Assembly (NCBI GenBank): GCA_023511485.1
Contig: JAIMBH010000019.1
Location: 1 to 43,577, forward strand
DNA: 43,577 bases
Source: Bacillota bacterium
Lineage (GTDB): Bacteria; Actinomycetota; Aquicultoria; Aquicultorales; Aquicultoraceae
Direction of reading: 5' to 3'
This document shows, piece by piece, positions 12,307 to 31,689 of this stretch. The notes under the pieces are model-generated. The model ran no database searches. It was not told the DNA's origin and worked only from the letters and a program-made list of their open reading frames with translations. Both the position numbers and the translations under genes were made by a program. Positions within the stretch are counted from its first letter, which is position 1. Each line of letters begins with the position of its first letter.

Positions 12307-12942
12307 ATGAATAATCACGATGCCGTTTTGCGCCAGCTTGTAAAAAAACTCGCTAGATTAAATTTTGGGATTGTTAGCAACCGAACTGGTGTGGAATTCG
12401 ATACTAAAACCGATTCGCTTAAGGTACGTTTTTTAGCGGAAGACTATGTTATTACAAAAAGCGGTTGTACTCCTCTATCCTGCACTGAGAGTGATGTTAG
12501 GGATCGAATCCTTATCCTTAACTACCTGCTGTCATTTGGTGGCCCTGACACAGGGGACGGTTGGCTAAATTTTCGCGACCTGCCGAATGCCGAAGCCTAC
12601 GACACTATTTTCAGGGCAAACGTGGAATCGGTTCTCGAGCGCAATGTGTTTGATATAGTCGACTGCAAGGAATTACTGATGAAGAAACTTGATGGTCATT
12701 CTGCACCTGGATTTCAGCATGCCAGCTTTGGAGCAGTTTTTCCGGTTCTACCCAGGGTTGAGTTGATGGTTCTACTTTGCGAGGGCGATGAGGAGCTGGA
12801 TCCAGAGGCAAAAGTTTGCTTTTCCTCAAGAGCTACCAACTTTTTTTCAACCGAGGGGCTTATCGCCATAGCGGAAGCGCTGGCCAGGAAGATGGTTAAG
12901 ATAAGCACTGAGGAAGCAAAAGCCCGTAAGAAGTCCGCGTAA
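12307..12942 (+). CDS. DUF3786 domain protein (copy 1)
   Basis: A 211-residue soluble protein of the DUF3786 family, of unknown biochemical role. The family hallmarks are visible: an N-terminal helix pair, a YLLSFGG segment, the W-x-x-F-R-D-L-P motif near residues 92-99, and a closing GDEEL-x-PEAKVCFSSRATNFFSTEGL region. Many anaerobes carry this family near corrinoid or C1 metabolism genes, but no such gene is in this window. It is clearly paralogous to the gene at 14054-14650 (well over half of aligned residues identical in the central blocks). There is no strong Shine-Dalgarno. The next gene is convergent with only 5 bp between stops. Confidence 0.8.
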   Translation: MNNHDAVLRQLVKKLARLNFGIVSNRTGVEFDTKTDSLKVRFLAEDYVITKSGCTPLSCTESDVRDRILILNYLLSFGGPDTGDGWLNFRDLPNAEAYDTIFRANVESVLERNVFDIVDCKELLMKKLDGHSAPGFQHASFGAVFPVLPRVELMVLLCEGDEELDPEAKVCFSSRATNFFSTEGLIAIAEALARKMVKISTEEAKARKKSA

Positions 12943-14053: not shown

Positions 14054-14650
14054 ATGGATAACTATGATATTGTATTAGATCAGCTCATAAAACAACTCGC
14101 TAAGTTTAACTATGCGATTGTAAGTTGCCGGACCGGTGCAGAGTTTGATATTGAAAAAGAGTGCCTTAAGCTTCGCTTCCTTGGAAAAGATTATGTGGTT
14201 AGCAAAAAAGACTGCCGGCCTTTAGGTGGTAGTCCTGATACCGGCAAAGAACAAATACTTATCATCGACTACTTGCTTTCGTTTGGAGGACTTGACCCTG
14301 GAGACGAGTGGGTTGACTTTCGCGATATACCAAACTCGATGCCGTATGACGGGGCATTTAGAGCCAACGTCGAATCGGTGCTTGAGAGGCACGTATCCGA
14401 TATAATCAAGCGCAAGGAAGAGCTGCTTGCCAAGCTTGACGGCCATGACGTAACCGAGGTCAACCAGGCCGATTTCGCCGCAATATTTCGCGTATTTCCA
14501 CGGGTGGAATGCCTCGTTTTACTTTTTGAAGGCGACGAAGAGACCGGCGCAGGCGCAAAACTTCTGTTTTCCTCTAATGGATACAAGTTTCTGACCACTG
14601 AAAGCCTGGCCGCAATCGGGGAGGCTCTAACAAGAAAACTGGTTGAGTAG
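14054..14650 (+). CDS. DUF3786 domain protein (copy 2)
   Basis: A 198-residue paralog of the gene at 12307. It shares YLLSFGG, the W-x-D-F-R-D-I-P motif, RANVESVLER and the GDEE plus LFSSNGYKFLTTESL ending. It lacks the lysine-rich C-terminal extension of copy 1. Biochemical function is unknown. Both copies have weak Shine-Dalgarno sites. They flank a lipoprotein gene on the other strand, so either a tandem duplication was interrupted by that gene or the lipoprotein gene was already adjacent. Confidence 0.8.
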   Translation: MDNYDIVLDQLIKQLAKFNYAIVSCRTGAEFDIEKECLKLRFLGKDYVVSKKDCRPLGGSPDTGKEQILIIDYLLSFGGLDPGDEWVDFRDIPNSMPYDGAFRANVESVLERHVSDIIKRKEELLAKLDGHDVTEVNQADFAAIFRVFPRVECLVLLFEGDEETGAGAKLLFSSNGYKFLTTESLAAIGEALTRKLVE

Positions 14651-20450: not shown

Positions 20451-20810
20451 ATGGTAAGTGAAATCATCTACTTCTCGATTTTTTCGGTAATCGGCATAGT
20501 GATAGTGGCCGGAGCTATCGGACTATCAAAACTTCTGCAAACCAAAAAACCGACGAAGGCTAAACTTGAGCCTTATGAGTGCGGTGTACCCAACATAACA
20601 AGTGACCCAAGGGTCCAGTTTAAAATCCATTATTATATCTTCGGTTTGTTGCTGGTTATCTTTGATGTTGAGATGATATTTATATTCCCATGGGCGGTTA
20701 CGTTTAAGAGCCTCGGCCTTTTTGCATTCGTTGAGATGACAATCTTTATTGCAATACTTGTGCTGGGTCTCTACTATGCCTGGCGCAAAGGGGTATTAAA
20801 GTGGGTATAG
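20451..20810 (+). CDS. nuoA: complex I subunit NuoA
   Basis: A 119-residue, three-helix membrane subunit at the junction of the peripheral and membrane arms of NADH-quinone oxidoreductase. The conserved cytosolic-side loop [10 protein letters not shown] is present, with the family cysteine, followed by [29 protein letters not shown] with the conserved D-x-E membrane motif. It is the first gene of the operon, and its end overlaps nuoB by 10 bp. The leader contains a stem-loop and an upstream inverted repeat, but the Shine-Dalgarno is weak. Confidence 0.95.
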
Positions 20811-21286
20811 TAAAAGAGCAGTCTTTAGACAATGGAGTACTTCTAACTAAAGCTGGCGACCTCATTAATTGGGGGCGCAAGAATTCTCTATGGTGGATGG
20901 GATTTGGTTTAGCATGTTGTGCTATCGATACCATCATGATGATAAACTCAGGGCGTTTTGATGCCGAAAGATTTGGGATTCTTCTGCGAAACACCCCAAG
21001 GCAATCTGATCTTATGTTGGTTGCAGGAACTGTAACACATAAGATGGCGCCGATGGTTAAACATCTCTACGAACAGATGCCGGAGCCCAAGTATGTTATT
21101 GCGCTTGGCAGTTGCGCAATCAATGGAGGGCCGTTCTATTACGACAGTTACAACGTGGTTCAGGGTGTTGACAAGGTTATCCCGGTTGATGTGTATGTGC
21201 CAGGCTGCCCACCACGGCCTGAAGCAGTGCTGCACGGTATAGAAATGTTGAAACAGAAAATAATGGCAAGAGGAAAGATTGATTAA
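20801..21286 (+). CDS. nuoB: complex I subunit NuoB (cluster N2)
   Basis: 161 residues. It carries the [4Fe-4S] cluster N2 that passes electrons to quinone. The ligands C39-C40 (GLACCAID), C105 (LGSCAINGG) and C136 (VPGCPPRPE) are all present. R/H-bearing segments near the quinone site ([14 protein letters not shown]) are conserved. It starts with GTG inside the nuoA 3' end, and its last base is shared with the nuoC ATG. In complexes lacking NuoEFG it still receives electrons from NuoI, here from the chimeric protein encoded at 24041. Confidence 0.96.
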
Positions 21287-21819
21287 TGAGTGATGAGCAC
21301 ATCCTTAACACAGATGGCCAGAGCGATGAAAATAGCGGCGAGCTAAGAGTAGTTAAAGAAGACGGAGTCGGCTATAGCATTACCGTTAAGAGGGAAGACC
21401 TCTTAAGAGCAGCCGCAAGCTGCAAGGAAGCTGGATTTGATTTATTTCTTTTTGTTACCGGCGTCGATATGCCGGATAAAATAAAGCTAGTCTACCGCAT
21501 TTTCTCAACCAAGAAGTCGAACAAACTAGCTATGACAATAAGAACAGAAGTGCCAAAAGATGACCCTGTTATCGACTCTGTAGTTCCTATCTGGTCTGCA
21601 GCAAATTGGCATGAGAGAGAAACATATGATCTTTTAGGCGTTATATTCAGAGGGCATCCGGACCCCCGCAGGATATTTATGCCGGACGATTGGGTTGGGC
21701 ATCCTCTGCGCAAAGACTATAAACACGAGCGTATAATTCCGTACAAGGGATATACCAGTAAATCCCAGACATCTGTGATAACCGAAGACAAATCTGATAG
21801 GTCTGATATAGATGAGTAG
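21286..21819 (+). CDS. nuoC: complex I subunit NuoC (30-kDa)
   Basis: 177 residues. The 30-kDa subunit signature is clear: WHERETYDLLGVIFRGHPDPRRIFMPDDW, then GHPLRKDY. It has a short acidic, poorly conserved N-terminal extension (residues 1-25) and a charged C-terminal tail. It supports NuoD in the connecting module and binds no cofactor. It shares one base with nuoB and overlaps nuoD by 8 bp. NuoC and NuoD are separate genes rather than fused. Confidence 0.94.
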   Translation: MSDEHILNTDGQSDENSGELRVVKEDGVGYSITVKREDLLRAAASCKEAGFDLFLFVTGVDMPDKIKLVYRIFSTKKSNKLAMTIRTEVPKDDPVIDSVVPIWSAANWHERETYDLLGVIFRGHPDPRRIFMPDDWVGHPLRKDYKHERIIPYKGYTSKSQTSVITEDKSDRSDIDE

Positions 21820-23014
21820 AATAGAACAGGAACGGTATAAAACATCAACAAAGAAGGCTTTGGCGGAACTCGAAAAAGAGTTTAAGCTAGACGATATCCC
21901 CATGGCCACAGACGGCTTTAAAACCGAGGAGATGGTCATCAATTTTGGGCCGCAGCATCCAAGTGCTCATGGTGTACTGCATGCTCTTTTTACAGTAGAT
22001 GGGGAAATCGTTAAGAAAATCCAGCCAAATATCGGATTTCTCCACAGGTGTTTTGAAAAAATCGCAGAAAGTAGGACTTACGCGCAGTTTGTGCCATTTA
22101 CGGATCGCATGGATTATGTGTCGTCGATGTTAAACAACTGGGCTTATGTGCTTACAGTTGAGAAGCTTGCGGGAATACAGGTTCCTGAGAGGGCTGAGTA
22201 CATAAGGACAATAGTCGGCGAGCTGCAGCGTATCGCATCGCACCTACTGTTTCTTATGACAGCTGGTGTTGAAGCAGGTGCACTAACACCGCTGTTTTAT
22301 TACTTCGATGAGCGCGAAGCTATCCTACGCCTTTTTGAAAAGGTATGCGGGGCAAGGCTTACCTATAATTACATGAAAATCGGAGGAGTAAGAGCCGACC
22401 TTCCTGAAGGATGGTTAGATGATACGCTTGCATTTGTTCGCAGGTTAAAGAAAAACATTGTTGACTACGATAAACTTCTGCTCGGCAATTACATCTTTAA
22501 GAAAAGAATGGTTGGTGTAGCTGAGTTCTCGGCTGCAGAAGCTCTTGATTGGGGTCTTACCGGGCCGCCGTTGCGTTCAACCGGTGTTGCGCATGATGTG
22601 CGTAAAACCGACCCCTATTCTATTTATCCAAGGTTAGATTTTGACATTGTTGTTAGACATAGGGGCGATAACTATGATCGTGTTTGTATCCGGTCCGATG
22701 AAATCAAAGAAAGCCTGAAGATTATTGAGCAATGCATTGAGCAGATCCCCGACGGACCGGTTATGGCGGATGGAGTATCGCAATATCTAAGGCCGCCCGT
22801 CGGCGACGCATACGGTCACGTAGAGGGAAGCCGCGGCGATCTTGGATACTACATAGTCAGCGATGGTAGTTCAAAGCCATACCGTGTTAAGATACAGGGT
22901 CCAAGCTTTGCAAACTTGCAGGCGTTTCCTGCAATGGCTGAAGGTCACTATTTTGCAGATGTGGTTCTTACCCTTGGCACTCTCGATCCGGTTTTTGGAG
23001 AGGTGGATCGCTAA
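21812..23014 (+). CDS. nuoD: complex I subunit NuoD (49-kDa, quinone site)
   Basis: 400 residues, homologous to the large subunit of NiFe hydrogenases but without the metal cysteines. The N-terminal FGPQHPSAHGVLHALF contains the quinone-site histidine. IGFLHRCFEKIAESRTYAQ and the DRMDYVSSMLNN segment are the next family blocks, and the C-terminus EGHYFADVVLTLGTLDPVFGEVDR matches the family's conserved end. Together with NuoB it forms the quinone-reducing cavity. It ends with a one-base overlap onto nuoH. Confidence 0.95.
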   Translation: MSRIEQERYKTSTKKALAELEKEFKLDDIPMATDGFKTEEMVINFGPQHPSAHGVLHALFTVDGEIVKKIQPNIGFLHRCFEKIAESRTYAQFVPFTDRMDYVSSMLNNWAYVLTVEKLAGIQVPERAEYIRTIVGELQRIASHLLFLMTAGVEAGALTPLFYYFDEREAILRLFEKVCGARLTYNYMKIGGVRADLPEGWLDDTLAFVRRLKKNIVDYDKLLLGNYIFKKRMVGVAEFSAAEALDWGLTGPPLRSTGVAHDVRKTDPYSIYPRLDFDIVVRHRGDNYDRVCIRSDEIKESLKIIEQCIEQIPDGPVMADGVSQYLRPPVGDAYGHVEGSRGDLGYYIVSDGSSKPYRVKIQGPSFANLQAFPAMAEGHYFADVVLTLGTLDPVFGEVDR

Positions 23015-24024
23015 TGTTGTCAAGCGCACAGCTGGTTGATTTTGCAAACAACAACGGTTTACCGTTATGGGCGATAGATGCCTCAGTTGCACTTCTACTT
23101 GCGCTTGTAGTGTTTGCCATATGCGGCATAGGCGTTATTGTTCTTGTCTATATGGAGCGTAAAGTCAGCGCTGACTTCCAGTTGCGCTGGGGACCGATGC
23201 ACGTAGGCTGGCATGGGACACTTCAGCTTATCGCGGATGCGGTAAAGCTTATATCTAAAGAAGATATTTTCCCAACATATGCAGACCGCTGGATATTTCG
23301 TTTATCACCCCTACTTATGTTTTTACCGGCATACATAGGGCTCATGGTCATACCGATCGGCCCCGGACTTGTTATCCGGGACATGAATGTAGGGCTGCTG
23401 TATATTTTAGCCATCACATCAATCAGCGTAGTCGGCGTTATAATGTCTGGCTTTGGTTCGTATAATAAATACTCGATGTTGGGCGGCATGCGTTCGGCAG
23501 CGCAGATGGTCAGCTACGAAGTGCCCCGGGCGCTCTCAATAATTGGCGTAATTATGATTGCTGGGTCGGCAAAGCTTTCATCGATTGTTGGAGCGCAGAG
23601 TATCTGGTACTTATTCCTACAACCTCTTGGCTTTATGGTGTTTATTGTCTCTACACTGGCAGAGGTAAACAGGGTGCCTTTTGACCTACCGGAAACTGAG
23701 TCAGAGCTGGTAAACGGATATCTCAATGAGTACAGCGGCATGCGCTTTATGTTCTTTCTCTTTGCTGAGTATATAGCTTTCATGGGCGCGGCGGCTTTAA
23801 CGGTAGTGTTGTTCCTTGGTGGCTGGCATGGCCCAGGGCCAGAATTTTTAGGCCCAATATGGTTCTTAATTAAGATGTTTGCGGTTATCTATGTAATTAT
23901 GTGGGTTCGCTGGACCCTACCGCGGTTTCGAATAGATCAGGTTATGGATTTAGGATGGAAGGTGCTACTACCCCTGGCGCTTCTAAATATATTTATAACT
24001 GGGATAGTAATGTTGATTATTTAA
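23014..24024 (+). CDS. nuoH: complex I subunit NuoH
   Basis: A 336-residue, eight-helix membrane subunit forming the quinone entry tunnel and coupling redox to proton movement. Conserved loops: VYMERKVSADFQLRWGPMHVG, then LQLIADAVKLISKEDIFP. Downstream, AEVNRVPFDLPETESELVNGYLNEYSGM is the acidic E-channel loop. WVRWTLPRFRIDQVM ends the family region. It shares a base with nuoD and lies 16 bp before the chimeric nuoI. Confidence 0.95.
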   Translation: MLSSAQLVDFANNNGLPLWAIDASVALLLALVVFAICGIGVIVLVYMERKVSADFQLRWGPMHVGWHGTLQLIADAVKLISKEDIFPTYADRWIFRLSPLLMFLPAYIGLMVIPIGPGLVIRDMNVGLLYILAITSISVVGVIMSGFGSYNKYSMLGGMRSAAQMVSYEVPRALSIIGVIMIAGSAKLSSIVGAQSIWYLFLQPLGFMVFIVSTLAEVNRVPFDLPETESELVNGYLNEYSGMRFMFFLFAEYIAFMGAAALTVVLFLGGWHGPGPEFLGPIWFLIKMFAVIYVIMWVRWTLPRFRIDQVMDLGWKVLLPLALLNIFITGIVMLII

Positions 24025-24040
24025 CAAGAGGTTGAAATAG

Positions 24041-25963
24041 ATGGCTGGACGGCTCTCAAACTTCATAGACGCGTGGAAAAGCATATTTATAGGTCATAGC
24101 ATCACTGGAAAAAGGCTTAGAGCACCTCGGGTGACAGAATTCTACCCGTTTGAGAAACCCGAGCTTGCCGAGCGTTTCCGCGGTGCTCCTATGCTAAAGG
24201 GCGTTATGACCGAGACAACTGAGGCAGAGAAGTTCCCAAATAAGTTGGGTCTGTTCAACAAAACGATTACGGAAAAAAATGAGGCCGGTGAGCTTCCGCC
24301 GTGCGTTTATGAGTGTCCAGCTCATGTGGATGCCCGTGGCTATGTCGAGCTAATTGCTAAAGGAAGGTTTAAAGAATCGCTCGATTTGATTCGCGAGCGC
24401 TGTACGCTGGCTGCGTCAATAGGTCGTGTCTGCACGAGAATTTGCGAAGGCGGCTGCAGGCGCAATGCATTTGACGAGCCGATATCTATACGTGACCTTA
24501 AGCGTTTTGCGGCGGATTATTGCAGAGATATGCCTCATCCGCAGGCAGTACCAAAGACAAAGGACAAAACAGTTGCCATTATCGGTGCAGGACCGGCAGG
24601 TCTGACCGCAGCACAGGTTCTTGCAAAACAGGGCTATCCGGTTACTATCTACGACAAAAATCCGCAGGGCGGCGGAACGCTCCTGACCGGTATTCCAAAG
24701 TATAGGTTGCCAAAGGACGTCTTGAAATGGGACGTAGATGCAGTATGCTCGCTTGGAGTTGAGCTGAAGACCAATGTCGAGGTAGGCAAAGATATACACT
24801 TGAACGATATTATCAATTCTTACGATGCAGTACTTCTAGCAACTGGTCTTCCGGCTGGGTATAACCTCGGTATTGAAGGCGAAGATGCCGAAGGTGTTTG
24901 GAGCTGCCTGGACCTTCTAAGAGAGGTCAATTTTGACAGGAACCCGAAAATCGGCAAGAAGGTTGCAGTAATCGGCGGCGGTAACGTTGCTATGGATGGG
25001 GCGAGGACTTCGCTGCGTCTTGGGGCAGAACAGGTTTATCTTATCTACCGCAGGAGCAAGTCCGAGATGCCAGCCCGTTATGAAGAGATCCATGAAGCGG
25101 AAGAAGAGGGCATAATATTTGAACTTCTAACCAACCCAAAAAGCATTGTTACCGAGAACGGCAGGGTTGTTGGGCTTGAGTGTGTACGCATGGGCTTAGG
25201 TGAGCCGGACGCTTCCGGCAGGCGCCGTCCCGAGCCGATTCCGGGCAGTGAATTTATTATGGAAGTAGATACAGTCATTACAGCTATTGGCCAGAAGACT
25301 GACTTGAGCTTTCTTGAGGGAACAGATATCAAGTTGACCGAAAAAGGTGCCATTGTTTATGACAAACTGACGCTTCAGACGTCTAACCCCAAGGTGTTTA
25401 CTGCCGGTGAGGTAGTAACAGGTGCGGGTGCTGCCATCCAGGCAATTGCAAGCGGCCACGAGGCAGCGGAATCGCTTGATAGGTTCCTGCGTGGGGTTGA
25501 TCTAAAAGAGGGAAGAACGCCTCAATTTATTGCAAGGCCCTACGGTTATGGACCGGTTTACTTAGACATGGTTGAGCCGGAGAGACGAAGAACACCCATG
25601 CGGATGATTCCTGTTGAGGAGCGCCTTAAGGGCTTTGCGGAAGTTGAGCTTGGATATAACGAAGAAGAGGCTGTCCGCGAAGCAAACCGCTGTTTGGTCT
25701 GCGAGACTGAGAACTGCAGCGGTTGCACAATGTGCGCACGGACATGCCCAGTACAATGCATCGATGTTGAAAGAACTGGTCCCAATGAAACCAATCGAAA
25801 GGTTCTTAAATATAATCTTGATTTAACTAAGTGCATGTTCTGCGGTCTATGTGCAGAAATATGCCCGACTAATGCTCTTGAGATGAGCAAAGATTACGAG
25901 AATGCTGAGTATACTAAAGACAAACTCTTTTACGATAAAGAAAAAGCATTACGGAGGTCCTAA
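24041..25963 (+). CDS. NuoI with an embedded GltD/NfnB-like FAD-NAD(P)H oxidoreductase
   Basis: 640 residues in the nuoI slot. Residues 1-55 match the NuoI N-terminus (YPFEKPELAERFRG, then MLKG). Residues ~80-545 are a GltD-type flavoprotein: Fe-S cysteines C88, C92, C121, C131, C135, C139; FAD fold IIGAGPAGLTA (180-190); NAD(P) fold VIGGGNVAMDGA (310-321) with YRRSKSEMPA (336-345); closing FAD motif GEVVTGAGAAIQAI (456-469). Residues ~550-640 are the NuoI ferredoxin domain: C559/C562/C565/C569, then C598/C601/C604/C608, and the tail KLFYDKEKAL. C551/C554 end the GltD part. All cofactor motifs are intact, so a working NAD(P)H-to-Fe-S path is plausible. Shine-Dalgarno agagg precedes the ATG. 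The two halves and the nuo context are observed; the electron route is inferred. Confidence 0.9.
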   Translation: MAGRLSNFIDAWKSIFIGHSITGKRLRAPRVTEFYPFEKPELAERFRGAPMLKGVMTETTEAEKFPNKLGLFNKTITEKNEAGELPPCVYECPAHVDARGYVELIAKGRFKESLDLIRERCTLAASIGRVCTRICEGGCRRNAFDEPISIRDLKRFAADYCRDMPHPQAVPKTKDKTVAIIGAGPAGLTAAQVLAKQGYPVTIYDKNPQGGGTLLTGIPKYRLPKDVLKWDVDAVCSLGVELKTNVEVGKDIHLNDIINSYDAVLLATGLPAGYNLGIEGEDAEGVWSCLDLLREVNFDRNPKIGKKVAVIGGGNVAMDGARTSLRLGAEQVYLIYRRSKSEMPARYEEIHEAEEEGIIFELLTNPKSIVTENGRVVGLECVRMGLGEPDASGRRRPEPIPGSEFIMEVDTVITAIGQKTDLSFLEGTDIKLTEKGAIVYDKLTLQTSNPKVFTAGEVVTGAGAAIQAIASGHEAAESLDRFLRGVDLKEGRTPQFIARPYGYGPVYLDMVEPERRRTPMRMIPVEERLKGFAEVELGYNEEEAVREANRCLVCETENCSGCTMCARTCPVQCIDVERTGPNETNRKVLKYNLDLTKCMFCGLCAEICPTNALEMSKDYENAEYTKDKLFYDKEKALRRS

Positions 25964-25965
25964 TA

Positions 25966-26014
25966 AAGCTTTCAGCTATTAGCTGAGAGCATAAATAAAT
26001 TAAGCTGAAAGCTT
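25966..26014. repeat. 12-bp perfect inverted repeat inside the nuo operon
   Basis: aagctttcagct (25966-25977) and agctgaaagctt (26003-26014) are exact inverses with a 25-nt spacer that itself repeats the word (attagctgagagc). It lies between the chimeric nuoI and nuoJ, the only sizeable gap (about 124 bp) in the operon. There is no T-run, so it is more likely an mRNA processing or stability hairpin, or a dispersed repeat, than a terminator. Confidence 0.6.
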
Positions 26015-26087
26015 AACACTTTTAGCATTTATTAAAAGTCTATAGTTGATATCCGCTTTATGGATATTATGCAGGAGAGTAAAGATT

Positions 26088-26603
26088 ATGGATTTAGCGA
26101 CACAAATCATATTCTTCGGTCTATCAGCTATGGCTATAGCGAGCGCGATAGCGGTAGTAACTAGGCGAAATTTGTTTCACGCAGCCATGTTCCTGGGTTA
26201 CCTGATGCTGGTTATAGCGGGCTTTTACTTCCTGCTTAATGCAGACCTTGTCGGAATGATGCAGGTATTTGTTTATGTTGGTGGCGTTGTCGTCGTGTTG
26301 CTTTTTGGTATCATGCTTACTGCGCAGGTGACCAACGTACGGCTTGTTTCGGGATTTAAGTTTAAAGGTCTTACACTGCTATCGATTATTGGATTGGTGG
26401 TGCTACTTATCTCAGTTTTTAATAAGGCAACGCTGCAGGTATCAAATGCAGCAGTTCCGAAAGATAGCGTGTCGCTGGTAGGAAAGCTGTTCATGACAAA
26501 CTATATCTTGCCGTTTGAAGTTATATCAGTGTTGCTTTTGGCAGCTTTGATTGGGGCAATTGTAATAGCCCGGGATGAAGCCAAGCACAAGGAGGACAGA
26601 TAA
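26088..26603 (+). CDS. nuoJ: complex I subunit NuoJ
   Basis: A 171-residue, five-helix membrane subunit next to NuoK. The family core DLVGMMQVFVYVGGVVVVLLFGIML is present, including the glycine/valine-rich helix with the pi-bulge region. The start at 26088 is preferred because aggaga (26073-26078) precedes it at a good distance and MDLATQIIFFGLSAMAI fits the family. A more upstream TTG (26046) would add 14 polar residues. The stop overlaps the nuoK ATG by one base. Confidence 0.93.
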   Translation: MDLATQIIFFGLSAMAIASAIAVVTRRNLFHAAMFLGYLMLVIAGFYFLLNADLVGMMQVFVYVGGVVVVLLFGIMLTAQVTNVRLVSGFKFKGLTLLSIIGLVVLLISVFNKATLQVSNAAVPKDSVSLVGKLFMTNYILPFEVISVLLLAALIGAIVIARDEAKHKEDR

Positions 26604-26911
26604 TGATACCTCTTTCATGGTATCTGGTGGTAAGTGCAGTACTCTTTGGGATAGGTCTAGTTGGTGTTTTGCTGAGGCAAAATGCTGTGACTATTCTGTT
26701 CTCGGTTGAGATTATGTTAAATGCAGCTAATCTCAACCTGGTCGCTTTTTCGAGATATATAACGCCAAATGTGATATCCGGGCAGATGTTTGCCTTGTTT
26801 ATAATAGCGGTTGCAGCCGCTGAGGTGGCCGTTGGCCTAGCTATAATACTTACGATTTACCGAAACCTGCACTCGGTAAATTTGGATAGGTTTAATATAT
26901 TCAAGTGGTAG
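26603..26911 (+). CDS. nuoK: complex I subunit NuoK
   Basis: A 102-residue, three-helix subunit. It carries the membrane-embedded glutamate in FSVEIMLNAANLNLVAFSR, part of the proton E-channel, and a second acidic residue in AAAEVAVGLAI. Length and layout are typical. One base overlaps nuoJ, and nuoL begins 12 bp downstream. Confidence 0.94.
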   Translation: MIPLSWYLVVSAVLFGIGLVGVLLRQNAVTILFSVEIMLNAANLNLVAFSRYITPNVISGQMFALFIIAVAAAEVAVGLAIILTIYRNLHSVNLDRFNIFKW

Positions 26912-26923
26912 CGGAGAAGAGAC

Positions 26924-28786
26924 ATGGATGCTTATAACATAATTCCTTATTACTTATCAGCAATAGTCTTACTGCCAACTGTAAGTTTCTTGTTGCTTCT
27001 TATTTTTGGCAAGAAATGGGGAGAGAAGTCAGCTTATGTCTCAATTGCGGCGGTGCTGATAAGTTTTGTACTTTCAATTAAAGCATTGGTCGACGTGCTC
27101 GGCGGGATACACGCCGAAACCACATTTACCTGGGCTGCAATAGGCGATCTTCACCTAACCTTCGGGTTGTTACTGGATCCACTGTCTGCAATGATGCTGG
27201 TCGTTGTGACCATGGTGAGCGCGCTAGTGCAGATCTTCTCTGTAGGCTATATGCACGGTGACAAGCGCTATGGTTGGTTCTATGCATGCCTTTCGATGTT
27301 TACCGTATCCATGCTTCTTCTTGTGTTCTCGCCGAACTATGTGCAGATGTATATGGCATGGGAAGGCGTCGGCGTATTCTCATACCTTTTGATTGGGTTC
27401 TGGTTTGAAAAGAGAAGCGCAAGCCAGGCTGCAAAGAAAGCCTTTATGGTAACGAGGGTTGGCGATCTGGGATTTGCAGCCTCTCTTATTCTTCTTTACG
27501 TAACCACCGGGACGCTTGATATGGATAAGGTGTTTGCCGCAAGCCTGCTTCCGAGTACTGCTGCGTTAATAGCGATTCTGATGTTCTTCGGGGCTATCGG
27601 TAAGTCAGCTCAGTTCCCGCTCCACGTGTGGTTGCCTGACGCAATGGAAGGTCCGACTCCAGTTAGTGCCCTCATCCACGCGGCAACCATGGTTGCAGCC
27701 GGTGTGTATCTGGTAGCAAGGTCGTACCCGCTGTTTGAGAAGGGTCCGGTTTCGCTTGAGTTCGTTGCAATAATCGGAACGATTACGGCTTTTATGGCTG
27801 CTACCATTGCGCTTACCGCAACAGACATAAAGAAAGTTCTGGCCTACTCGACAATAAGCCAGCTTGGCTATATGATGATGGGCCTTGGCGTAGGTGCATT
27901 TGCGGCAGGTACATTCCATCTGTTTACGCACGCTTTTTTCAAGGCACTCCTCTTTCTTGGTGCAGGTAGCGTAATCCACGCAGTTCATAGCCAGGAGATT
28001 TTTGAGATGGGTGGCCTGTGGAAGAAGATGAAGATAACCTCAATAACGTTTATTATAGGAGGTCTTGCACTTGCAGGAGTGCCACCATTTGCGGGATTCT
28101 GGAGCAAGGATGAGATACTTGCCGGTGCTTATAGCAGCGGGCACACAGCAATATTTATATTTGGGCTTTTAACCGCGCTTTTAACCGCGTTCTACACATT
28201 CCGGCTAATCTTTGTGGTTTTCTTTGGCAAGCCGAGAGTTAGTCATCATGGTGACCACGTGCATGAGTCCCCGCTGGTTATGAGCGGTCCGCTAATGATT
28301 CTTGGTTTGTTTGCACTAACAGCTGGATTAATTGGCTCACCGTTAGCGCAGAACGCTTTCCAGGGATTTATACTAGGCGGGCATGGAGAGGAGCACCATA
28401 TAAACTACATGGTTATGGGGGCATCTGTTCTATTAGCCGTTCTTGGTATTGCGGCGGCATGGTTAAAATATGGAACAACGCTTCTGCCATCGGGCGTTAT
28501 TACCAAAGATAATCCGATTTACAAGTTGCTGGTCAATAAATATTACATGGATGAGCTTTACTACTACACTTTAATTGTTCCGACCCATGCAATCGCAAAA
28601 GCGGTTCTTGCTTTCGATCAGAAGGTCGTCGACGGCATCGTAAATGGCGTTGCCTGGGTGACCGCGAGGCTGGGTTGGACTTTAAGGCGGGTTCAGACCG
28701 GCTATGTGCAGAACTATGCGTTGCTTATGATAATCGGATTGGTAGTTTTGATAATTTGGTCATTTAGATATCTGGGTTTGCATTAA
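26924..28786 (+). CDS. nuoL: complex I subunit NuoL (distal proton pump)
   Basis: A 620-residue antiporter-like subunit with the MRP-type core. WEGVGVFSYLLIGFWF carries the key helix-5 glutamate, WLPDAMEGPTPVSALIHAATMVAAGVYL is the broken-helix region with the channel lysine nearby, and TDIKKVLAYSTISQLGYMM follows. It has the C-terminal lateral helix extension that distinguishes NuoL from NuoM. Typical length for the family. A histidine-rich loop, HHGDHVHES, sits before the last third. It translocates protons at the end of the membrane arm. Confidence 0.95.
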   Translation: MDAYNIIPYYLSAIVLLPTVSFLLLLIFGKKWGEKSAYVSIAAVLISFVLSIKALVDVLGGIHAETTFTWAAIGDLHLTFGLLLDPLSAMMLVVVTMVSALVQIFSVGYMHGDKRYGWFYACLSMFTVSMLLLVFSPNYVQMYMAWEGVGVFSYLLIGFWFEKRSASQAAKKAFMVTRVGDLGFAASLILLYVTTGTLDMDKVFAASLLPSTAALIAILMFFGAIGKSAQFPLHVWLPDAMEGPTPVSALIHAATMVAAGVYLVARSYPLFEKGPVSLEFVAIIGTITAFMAATIALTATDIKKVLAYSTISQLGYMMMGLGVGAFAAGTFHLFTHAFFKALLFLGAGSVIHAVHSQEIFEMGGLWKKMKITSITFIIGGLALAGVPPFAGFWSKDEILAGAYSSGHTAIFIFGLLTALLTAFYTFRLIFVVFFGKPRVSHHGDHVHESPLVMSGPLMILGLFALTAGLIGSPLAQNAFQGFILGGHGEEHHINYMVMGASVLLAVLGIAAAWLKYGTTLLPSGVITKDNPIYKLLVNKYYMDELYYYTLIVPTHAIAKAVLAFDQKVVDGIVNGVAWVTARLGWTLRRVQTGYVQNYALLMIIGLVVLIIWSFRYLGLH

Positions 28787-28798
28787 GGGTGTGAAGGA

Positions 28799-30262
28799 AT
28801 GAGTTACCCAATACTTTCAATAATCATACTGCTGCCGATAGCGGGAGCTCTACTGCTGCAATTTATACCACGCAGGCAGGCTAATCTCATTCGCACGGTT
28901 GCACTGCTAGTTACGCTTATCGACCTTGCTTTTGGGACTGTGCTTTTAGCCAATTACAAGGCCGGGCAGGCGACAATGCAGTTTGTTGAGAAACTCGCAT
29001 GGGTGCCCAAAGCAGGTATATCTTACTTTGTTGGGCTTGACGGTATCAGCATGCCTTTATTTGAGCTGACTTTGCTTCTTATGGTAGTGTCGGTTCTAGC
29101 CTCCTGGTCAATCAAGGAGAGGGTAAGAGAGCACTACAGCTTAATGCTTCTTCTTGCGGTAGGTATGTTAGGTACCTTTGCGGCTTTAGATTTCGTGCTC
29201 TTCTACATATTCTGGGAACTGGTTCTTATCCCAATGTACTTTATTATCGGTATTTGGGGCGGCGAAAACCGTAACTACGCGGCCATCAAGTTCTTCCTGT
29301 ATACATTGGCTGGAAGTGTCTTGATGCTGGTTGGTATACTTGCGCTTTACTTCACTTCTGGCCTGGGCACGTTTGATATGGTAAAGCTGATGCAATCAGG
29401 ATACCATTCTTATCTGTCGACATTTATCTTTGTCACTTTCTTCCTAGGATTTGCGGTAAAGGTACCAATGTGGCCGTTCCACACGTGGCTGCCCGATGCG
29501 CACGTACAGGCTCCAACTGCAGGAAGCGTGCTGCTTGCAGGCATTCTTCTTAAGATGGGGACTTATGCGTTTATAAGAATCGTAGTTCAGATACTTCCGA
29601 CCGAGTTTGCGAGGTTTGCACCGTTTGTTGCAGTTCTTGCCGTTATAAGTATTGTCTATGGAGCATATACAGCCCTTGCACAGAAGGATTTAAAGAAGAT
29701 GGTTGCTTATTCAAGTGTGAGCCATATGGGCTACGTTATGCTGGGCATAGCGGCTCTTACTCAGGTATCGCTAAATGGAGCCGTGTTGCAGATGGTAAAC
29801 CACGGGCTTATAACTGGCATGCTCTTTTTGATGGTCGGATATATTTATGAAAGGACTCATACGCGCGATATTGCGAAACTCGGTGGGCTTTCGATCAAGA
29901 TTCCGATTCTTGGCGGTATGTTCGTGTTTGCGGCGCTGGCATCCCTTGGATTGCCGGGCTTAAGTGGGTTTGTAGGTGAGATTCTGATAATGCTTGGTTC
30001 GTATGGGGCTTTTAAGGTCTACACGATTCTTGCAGTTATTACGCTTGCTCTCACCGCATTCTATCTGATACGGGCAAATCAGAATGCCATATTTGGCGTT
30101 CCGCAGGCATGGATGGGCAATTTCAATGATGCAAACGGCAGAGAGCTTGTAAGTGCCCTGCCATTGATATTCATGATTGTCGCGATAGGGGTTTACCCGC
30201 AGCCATTCTTGCATTATATTAATCCTGCTGTCGATGCAGTGTTGCAAATAGTAGGTAAATAA
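28799..30262 (+). CDS. nuoM: complex I subunit NuoM (middle proton pump)
   Basis: A 487-residue, 14-helix antiporter-like subunit. FWELVLIPMYFIIGIWGG includes the pumping glutamate. HTWLPDAHVQAPTAGSVLLAGILLKMGTYAFIR and QKDLKKMVAYSSVSHMGYV are the discontinuous-helix blocks. It is 12 bp downstream of nuoL and 17 bp before nuoN, all on one strand. Confidence 0.95.
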   Translation: MSYPILSIIILLPIAGALLLQFIPRRQANLIRTVALLVTLIDLAFGTVLLANYKAGQATMQFVEKLAWVPKAGISYFVGLDGISMPLFELTLLLMVVSVLASWSIKERVREHYSLMLLLAVGMLGTFAALDFVLFYIFWELVLIPMYFIIGIWGGENRNYAAIKFFLYTLAGSVLMLVGILALYFTSGLGTFDMVKLMQSGYHSYLSTFIFVTFFLGFAVKVPMWPFHTWLPDAHVQAPTAGSVLLAGILLKMGTYAFIRIVVQILPTEFARFAPFVAVLAVISIVYGAYTALAQKDLKKMVAYSSVSHMGYVMLGIAALTQVSLNGAVLQMVNHGLITGMLFLMVGYIYERTHTRDIAKLGGLSIKIPILGGMFVFAALASLGLPGLSGFVGEILIMLGSYGAFKVYTILAVITLALTAFYLIRANQNAIFGVPQAWMGNFNDANGRELVSALPLIFMIVAIGVYPQPFLHYINPAVDAVLQIVGK

Positions 30263-30279
30263 AAAGAGGTATAGCTGGG

Positions 30280-31689
30280 ATGGATTTTTCACAAATTAAT
30301 TGGATGGCTCTAATGCCGGAAATAATAATACTGGGCTTTGCGGTAATAGTTCTACTGGGAGAGCTCTTTTTGACCGCTGCGGCAAAGAGGTCGTTGGGTG
30401 CCGTTACTCTTATTGGTTTGCTGATAAGCTTAGCGAGCGTAGTCAATATCTGGGGCTTGGAAGTAAGCGAGTTTAATGGGATGTTTGAAGTTGACCTCAC
30501 TGCAAATATACTAAAGGCTATCCTTTTGGCAACTACCGCACTTGTTGTCCTTGGAACTCTAAAAACAAGAGTTACATTGGGTGAGGGAGAGTTCTTCAGC
30601 CTGATCCTGTTTTCGGTGTTGGGCACTATGTTTATGGCCTCGGCAACCGATATGATCATGCTTTTTATAGCGCTTGAACTAACAGTCCTTCCGGCGTATG
30701 TCCTGGTAGCCAGCAAAAAAGATGCAAAATCGGCTGAAGCAGCCTTAAAATATTTCCTTCTGGGTATTGTAGCCTCAGTAGTTCTGCTATATGGCATGAC
30801 CCTCTTGTTTGGTTTGACCGGCTCCACAGGCTTTGCCGATATTGCGCATAAGTTAAGCGGAAAGGCGATAAGCCCAATGCTGGTCGTCTCTATATTGATG
30901 ATCATGGTAGGTCTAGGCTTTAAAGTTGCCGCTGTACCGTTCCATTTCTGGGCGCCGGATGTTTACGAGGGGTCGCCAGTTCCAGTAGCATCGTACCTTT
31001 CAGCCGGACCTAAAGCCGGGGGTTTCGCCGCACTCATCCACCTTTTCCCAGTTGCGCTCGCTTCGGTCACGCCGGCCTGGGCAGCTCTATTTGCCATCTT
31101 GGCAGTTATGAGCATGTTTATCGGAAACCTGGTCGCACTTGCGCAGAGCCAGGTAAGAAGGCTTCTTGGATATTCAGCAGTTGCGCATACTGGTTATCTG
31201 CTGGTTGGCCTTGCGGTTGCCAGCAAAATCGGATATACATCCATGATATTTTACTTCTTCGTTTACTCGCTGGCTGCGCTTGGTGCTTTCCTCGTTGTGC
31301 TTGCAACGACAGAGCGGGGGATAGGGGAGAATGTAACAGACTTTGCGGGCTTACACAAGAGGGCCCCGATGCTTGCTATTGCGATGGCTATATTCTTGTT
31401 CTCTCTGGTAGGAATTCCGCCGTTTGCGGGTTTCATGGGTAAGCTTTTCCTGTTTAAATCAGCTGTAGAGTCGAACCTCATCTGGCTTGCAGTAGTCGGT
31501 GTACTAAACAGCGTGATATCGTTTGGGTACTACGTAACAGTTATCAGGCAAATGTACCTGGTAAAACCAGAGAGCAGTGAGACTGTCATAGTATCAAGAC
31601 CCTTATACCTTTCCATAATGCTTATTATGGCCGCTATAATCCTCCTGGGTGTTTACCCGACAGCTTTTCTGTCTATAATTAAGCTATAG
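30280..31689 (+). CDS. nuoN: complex I subunit NuoN (proximal proton pump)
   Basis: 469 residues, last of the core nuo genes. Family motifs: ALELTVLPAYVLVASKK with the conserved glutamate, VPFHFWAPDVYEGSPVPVASYLSAGPKAGGFAAL, and QSQVRRLLGYSAVAHTGYLLVGL. It completes the four antiporter-like/E-channel components, so the membrane arm is whole even though NuoEFG are missing. Confidence 0.95.
   Translation: MDFSQINWMALMPEIIILGFAVIVLLGELFLTAAAKRSLGAVTLIGLLISLASVVNIWGLEVSEFNGMFEVDLTANILKAILLATTALVVLGTLKTRVTLGEGEFFSLILFSVLGTMFMASATDMIMLFIALELTVLPAYVLVASKKDAKSAEAALKYFLLGIVASVVLLYGMTLLFGLTGSTGFADIAHKLSGKAISPMLVVSILMIMVGLGFKVAAVPFHFWAPDVYEGSPVPVASYLSAGPKAGGFAALIHLFPVALASVTPAWAALFAILAVMSMFIGNLVALAQSQVRRLLGYSAVAHTGYLLVGLAVASKIGYTSMIFYFFVYSLAALGAFLVVLATTERGIGENVTDFAGLHKRAPMLAIAMAIFLFSLVGIPPFAGFMGKLFLFKSAVESNLIWLAVVGVLNSVISFGYYVTVIRQMYLVKPESSETVIVSRPLYLSIMLIMAAIILLGVYPTAFLSIIKL

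Follow-up and report, generated by a model that had tools for sequence, protein, structure and literature searches.

The closest precedents for the protein described here are soluble transhydrogenases. The large subunit StnC of the StnABC transhydrogenase from Sporomusa ovata (8oh5) and the large subunits of NfnABC (9bov, 9n5u) carry a GltD-like module for NADPH and FAD that has two [4Fe-4S] clusters and is fused to a NuoG/FdhF-like domain that transfers the electrons onward through complex-I-type Fe-S clusters. In StnC, electrons pass from NADPH via FAD to the clusters C7 and C6 and on to the NuoG-type clusters, with spacings of 9–18 angstrom; the flavin is non-bifurcating, and the ligands of C7 include a lysine, K170 (PMC10482914). 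DsrL likewise combines a cluster domain, FAD and NAD(P) domains, and a carboxy-terminal 2x[4Fe-4S] domain (PMC7596348), the latter being a generic ferredoxin that is placed on a linker of ~100 residues and serves DsrAB. In DsrL, a YRR motif accompanies strict NADP(H) use, as measured for DaDsrL-2, and the same motif in NfnB holds the 2'-phosphate (PMC7596348).

As for complex I, NAD(P)H is oxidized in the canonical enzyme by the N-module (NuoEFG), which has FMN in NuoF and feeds the clusters of NuoI. Complex I-like enzymes of 11 subunits, known from Desulfitobacterium hafniense and Anaerosomatales, share the layout nuoABCDHIJKLMN without nuoEFG (PMC11238625, PMC9686372), and have been described with an ordinary NuoI and with donors that are unknown or proposed to be ferredoxin or hydrogenase. 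For the NuoEFG-less enzymes, the donor has been stated to be unresolved, a common donor protein having been sought but not found (PMC11238625), and for cultured Anaerosomatales, whose operon has this layout, alternative donors such as ferredoxin were proposed (PMC9686372).

The window analyzed here, i.e., the whole stretch of 43,577 nucleotides, contains an operon of this 11-gene type, in which the gene at the nuoI position encodes a NuoI-GltD fusion. With a probability of roughly 0.8, we interpret the fusion as the electron-input subunit of a respiratory complex I that lacks the N-module, where a GltD/NfnB-type module inside NuoI replaces NuoEFG and NADPH is the most likely reductant. The operon extends from 20451 to 31689 in the order nuoA, B, C, D, H, fusion, J, K, L, M, N, and the genes around the fusion are as follows:

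20451..20810, + strand: nuoA (PF00507, E 5e-36)
20801..21286, + strand: nuoB (NuoB family above cut-off), with the four N2 cluster cysteines by motif position (CC 39–40, GSC 105–107, PGCPPRP 136)
21286..21819, + strand: nuoC (PF00329 and TIGR01961 above cut-off)
21812..23014, + strand: nuoD (TIGR01962 above cut-off), in which HPxAHG (49) and DRMDY (98) are the motifs of the quinone site
23014..24024, + strand: nuoH (PF00146, E 3e-116), the only NuoH match in a genome-wide search
26046..26603, + strand: nuoJ (PF00499); an ATG at 26088 after AGGAGAG is the more likely start
26603..26911, + strand: nuoK (PF00420)
26924..28786, + strand: nuoL (TIGR01974 above cut-off)
28799..30262, + strand: nuoM (TIGR01972 above cut-off)
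30280..31689, + strand: nuoN (open reading frame with 75–84% identity to the nuoN that close relatives have in this position)

The Q and P modules of complex I are thus complete with respect to N2 ligands, quinone-site residues, and pump genes. Neither the list of open reading frames nor family profile searches revealed nuoE, nuoF, or nuoG in the operon, which sets the locus apart from the canonical 14-subunit form, where NuoEFG are part of the complex. The placement of the fusion in the nuoI position of a nuoA-N operon, as originally predicted, is borne out by its location between nuoH and nuoJ and by neighbors that match complex I families. Elsewhere in the window, two paralogous proteins of ~200 residues (12307–12942 and 14054–14650) flank an oppositely oriented lipoprotein-like gene.

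The fusion gene (24041–25963, + strand) is a single uninterrupted open reading frame of 640 codons, separated from nuoH by 16 bases and from the listed nuoJ frame by 82 bases. Its parts are:

24041..25963, + strand: NuoI-GltD fusion gene, 640 residues (open reading frame; Pfam and NCBIfam matches; same gene and place in relatives)
24041..24232, + strand: NuoI amino-terminal half, residues 1–64, with an amphipathic/anchor helix and RFRG loop (60–69% identity to the amino terminus of the plain NuoI that G001, G005, and G008 encode at this locus)
24233..25711, + strand: inserted module, residues 65–557 (missing where sister genomes encode a plain NuoI at this locus)
24290..24529, + strand: Fer4_20 cluster domain, residues 84–163 (PF14691; conservation; alignment with StnC, PMC10482914)
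24566..25495, + strand: FAD-binding domain with embedded NAD(P) domain, residues 176–485 (PF07992; confident model region matching StnC, Nfn, and GltD structures)
25568..25705, + strand: segment resembling the NfnB amino terminus, residues 510–555, with RCLVC (C551, C554) (matches residues 3–47 of NfnB 4ylf_B)
25712..25954, + strand: NuoI 2x[4Fe-4S] domain with NuoI-specific tail, residues 558–638 (TIGR01971; PDB searches by sequence and by fold find chains of complex I subunit I)

In Pfam, the protein matches Fer4_20 (residues 86–163), Pyr_redox_2 (177–472), and a 4Fe-4S dicluster domain (558–612), and NCBIfam models of the PRK12771/GltD type cover residues 67–617 with E 1e-144. The NuoI model TIGR01971 matches residues 556–635 (E 1e-24; profile positions 41–120 of 121) with 86.3 bits, below the curated cut-off of 113.05 because the insert sets the amino-terminal half of NuoI apart. 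Both hallmarks of NuoI are present, i.e., the two CxxCxxCxxxCP motifs of N6a/N6b and the NuoI-specific tail, as are those of GltD/NfnB-type proteins, namely the Fer4_20 cysteines, the FAD GxGxxG motif, and the NAD(P) Rossmann motif. The motifs in the FAD/NAD(P) domain read GAGPAG, GGGNVAMD, and, at residues 336–338, YRR.

The cluster cysteines and FAD motifs are conserved over 14 fusions, with identity down to 38%. In the Fer4_20 domain, C88, C92, C131, C135, and C139 are invariant among the fusions compared, and K154 aligns with K170 of StnC. The segment spanning residues 510–555 (RRRTPMRMIPVEERLKGFAEVELGYNEEEAVREANRCLVC) is amino-terminal in NfnB, and follows the FAD domain in the fusion protein; in its RCLVC motif, C554 is invariant and C551 nearly so in the 14 fusions, and both are predicted to be ligands of the distal cluster. 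Together, these seven module cysteines fit the two-cluster pattern of NfnB and DPD. All eight NuoI cysteines (C559, C562, C565, C569, C598, C601, C604, and C608) are invariant, and five residues separate the last module cysteine, C554, from the first NuoI ligand, C559. With dN/dS values of ~0.02–0.2 wherever computable, the fusion is under purifying selection. An FAD/NAD(P) module with its own Fe-S cysteines, located between the NuoI amino terminus and the first ferredoxin motif, had been proposed from the DNA alone, and the family matches and invariant cysteines support this.

In a model of the whole protein, the FAD/NAD(P) region was predicted mostly with pLDDT values of 75–94, and matches the structures of NfnABC, StnC, NfnI, GltD, and DPD; NfnABC and StnC chains rank at the top in Foldseek/VIA-align comparisons (Z ~28–29). 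The NuoI half reached ~32–51 in this model, where the alignments are shallow. When the last 130 residues were folded alone, the ferredoxin core had pLDDT values of ~70–80 at best, again from a shallow alignment. For the NuoI half folded alone, a complex I subunit I matched best, and many further NuoI/NdhI chains were also top-ranking matches.

Three genomes from the same family as the window genome (G001, G005, and G008) have a plain NuoI of 159–168 residues in the same chromosomal place, where the gene order, named by eye from the sequence, reads valS-folC-...-ndk-nuoABCDH-nuoI-JKLMN. Compared with these plain NuoI proteins, the window protein is 60–69% identical over its amino-terminal NuoI half and 59–62% over the carboxy-terminal one, and the alignment breaks from ~64 to ~557, which shows that the module was inserted into a genuine nuoI gene. 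The original prediction had assigned residues 1–55 and 550–640 to NuoI; the two NuoI halves are real, but judged against the plain NuoI of the sister genomes their limits shift to ~1–64 and ~558–638. These three relatives also show that some lineages can do without the module. The plain-NuoI forms are nested inside the fusion-bearing family in a NuoD+NuoH tree, a position that suggests loss or replacement of the module in them.

A search within Actinomycetota found the fusion in ~69 genomes from at least three classes. In the window's class, full-length fusion proteins in nuo context were read for 14 loci (families f1, f2, f3, f4, f5, f6, and f9); away from the loci read, the carrier count is based on a junction match and frame length. 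The fused junction is present in 18 of the 36 genomes sampled from the window's class. Beyond this class, it was found in all three genomes of the G037 class, in G075 and G264, and in ~46 of the 119 sampled genomes of the G155 class, including the single-contig genome G155 itself. Most of the close relatives that bear a name are metagenome-assembled genomes of Actinomycetota, and a look for further homologues in viral contigs yielded little.

Variants of the arrangement occur. Two fusions of 503 residues in family f29 (L123:5611-7122 and L110:2557-4068, from G052 and G066) keep the cluster and FAD parts but no longer contain an NAD(P)-binding domain; the module can thus persist without an NAD(P) role, and these fusions would need another donor. 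In G022, the fusion lies in two frames of 155 and 451 residues, split at the FAD GxGxxG motif (L115:4695-6544), owing to a frameshift, a sequencing error, or a true split. The genomes that hold loci L121 and L107 encode a second, plain NuoI-like protein of ~172 residues at another locus (G185:C2:256495-256734 and G155:C1:1010754-1010963), and two kinds of complex I may exist side by side in some species.

In a tree of the GltD core, ordinary GltD-type proteins separate the inserted modules into at least three clades. When the modules are constrained to a single clade, the log-likelihood drops by 204, and a single origin of the inserted module is rejected by the AU test (p = 2e-49), although some branches are long. 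At least three events would be needed, either repeated captures of a module at one and the same point or replacements of the module within one ancestral fusion.

The lineages also differ in motifs relevant to nucleotide binding. YRR, together with lysine at position 154, is found in the window's family and in the f3/f4/f15 group. The f5/f6/f9/f38/f55 group and 17 loci read from the G155 class instead have C/S/M-L-E together with histidine at the 154 position, while f2 has the lysine and, in this alignment, an aberrant EGP at the nucleotide motif. Since YRR denotes NADP(H) in DsrL and NfnB, the window protein is expected to take NADPH, which by this analogy is its most likely nucleotide; the acidic residue that replaces RR in the other clade suggests use of NADH. 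The donor, which the original prediction had left as NAD(P)H, can therefore be retained in general terms and narrowed to NADPH here, with NADH-type motifs in other lineages.

The window's own genome (2.37 Mb, 58 contigs, 100% complete) has no second convincing NuoI; the best other match to the NuoI model (33.6 bits) is a broken frame of 117 residues. Two NuoE/NuoF sets are present, one with a NiFe-hydrogenase (contig 8) and one with a StnC-like GltD-NuoG/Fdh protein (contig 21), neither of them near nuo. The NuoF domain PF10589 is absent genome-wide from the fusion carriers G002, G007, G010, and G024, which are 98–100% complete. A separate intact nuoI together with nuoEFG, which would count against an input module carried in cis, was looked for in the window's own genome and was not found. 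Combined with the intact motifs and the single NuoH, these observations agree with the earlier suggestion that an in-cis NAD(P)H input module replaces the N-module.

Two further loci of this genome contain GltD-type proteins. On contig 21 (L074:3733-9765), a NuoE and a NuoF with ferredoxin tail accompany a GltD-NuoG/Fdh-like protein of 1228 residues, in what is probably a transhydrogenase of the StnABC/NfnABC type. On contig 11 (L076:3527-12711), look-alikes of dsrA/dsrB and dsrMKJOP, named by eye from sequence, are found together with a DsrL-like GltD protein of 572 residues, and suggest a sulfite/sulfate-reducing lifestyle.

StnC is the closest precedent of the fusion, and the lysine ligation of its proximal cluster is predicted likewise for K154. 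However, the partner domain is NuoI instead of a NuoG/FdhF-like domain, the module is inserted within its partner, and the gene belongs to the operon of a membrane complex I. The fusion protein is accordingly no member of the StnC-like class, since it ends in NuoI and the Stn-like protein of the same genome is separate. Nor can it be assigned to DsrL, as its carboxy terminus is NuoI, its gene is located in the nuo operon, and a separate DsrL-like gene exists in the genome. The electron-bifurcating NfnB class does not apply either, given Lys at 154 instead of Glu and the absence of NfnA from the operon. Compared with the known 11-subunit enzymes, the donor module is present in cis, and compared with the canonical N-module the same job is expected, i.e., two-electron oxidation of NAD(P)H feeding the NuoI clusters, but with a predicted FAD in a GltD fold.

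In the proposed mechanism, the GltD module would lie between the membrane-proximal NuoI amino terminus and the NuoI ferredoxin domain, which is presumed to dock on NuoB/NuoD, and would take the place of NuoEFG. NADPH would reduce the module FAD, from which single electrons would pass to the proximal [4Fe-4S] cluster (C92, C131, C135, K154), then to the distal cluster (C88, C139, C551, C554), and directly on to NuoI cluster N6a (C559, C562, C565, C608). We take the ligands of N6a to be the first NuoI motif and the last cysteine, and assign cysteines to clusters by homology and from what is known of NfnB, DPD, and NuoI. From N6a, the electrons would proceed via N6b to N2 in NuoB and to menaquinone, with the membrane subunits pumping protons. 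In other lineages, NADH would be the reductant instead of NADPH.

The same parts could operate in the opposite direction, with menaquinol and the proton-motive force, or electrons that enter elsewhere, reducing NADP+ via the module to provide NADPH for CO2 fixation and biosynthesis. Modules of the GltD/DsrL type are reversible (PMC7596348), and genes resembling MetF/MetV and CODH/ACS (named by eye), along with other NAD(P)-linked GltD proteins in the genome, suggest autotrophy. The dsrAB/dsrMKJOP-like cluster, also named by eye, points instead to a respiration that consumes menaquinol and favors the forward direction, and we regard reverse operation as unlikely. As the module is homologous to NfnB, in which the FAD bifurcates, and as YRLP contains an invariant arginine (position 222), the presumed counterpart of the one close to FAD N5 in NfnB and StnC, NADPH oxidation might alternatively be coupled to reduction of both quinone and ferredoxin by bifurcation or confurcation in the manner of NfnAB. 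Such coupling is very unlikely, since all fusions checked have Lys or His, and never the Glu of NfnB, at the position of the proximal-cluster ligand, StnC with the same Lys is non-bifurcating (PMC10482914), and no NfnA-like partner is encoded in the operon.

The module could also be a relic or a docking platform, the true donor being reduced ferredoxin or a partner protein that binds NuoI. The f29 fusions and the three sister genomes with plain NuoI are consistent with this, and ferredoxin is the usual suggestion for 11-subunit complexes (PMC11238625, PMC9686372); even so, in the window's lineage the FAD, NAD(P), and cluster motifs are all intact and under purifying selection, which makes a relic highly improbable. 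The draft state of the source assembly in turn raises the question of an assembly or annotation artefact, of which the chance is negligible: the fusion recurs, conserved between nuoH and nuoJ, in many independent assemblies, one of them a single contig, which rules out chance and misassembly. Forward transfer from NADPH to quinone through the module in NuoI is thus the reading that we prefer.

No published description of a NuoI-GltD fusion was found in the open-access literature, preprints being outside this scope, and the arrangement, which was not recognized at the outset either, appears as such to be undescribed, with StnC as a close precedent. What is new is the GltD module inside NuoI; complex I without NuoEFG, and GltD fused to other redox domains as in StnC, DsrL, and fused Nfn, are already known. 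We consider it likely that the fusions represent a widespread and hitherto unrecognized kind of complex I in anaerobic Actinomycetota, in which the N-module has been swapped for a GltD-type module at one point of NuoI, captured or exchanged at least three times, and powered by NADPH in some lineages, including that of the window (YRR), and by NADH in others (C/S/M-L-E). The donor of a NuoEFG-less complex I would here be encoded within the subunit itself, so that its identity and its nucleotide can be read from the sequence. If true, this offers, for these bacteria, a candidate answer to the question of what feeds the stripped-down complex I. It would also imply that an unrelated input module can be accommodated by complex I at NuoI, lend support to the idea that the 11-subunit engine is a platform able to take on donors, and predict that anaerobic Actinomycetota possess a complex I that is driven by NADPH and pumps protons.
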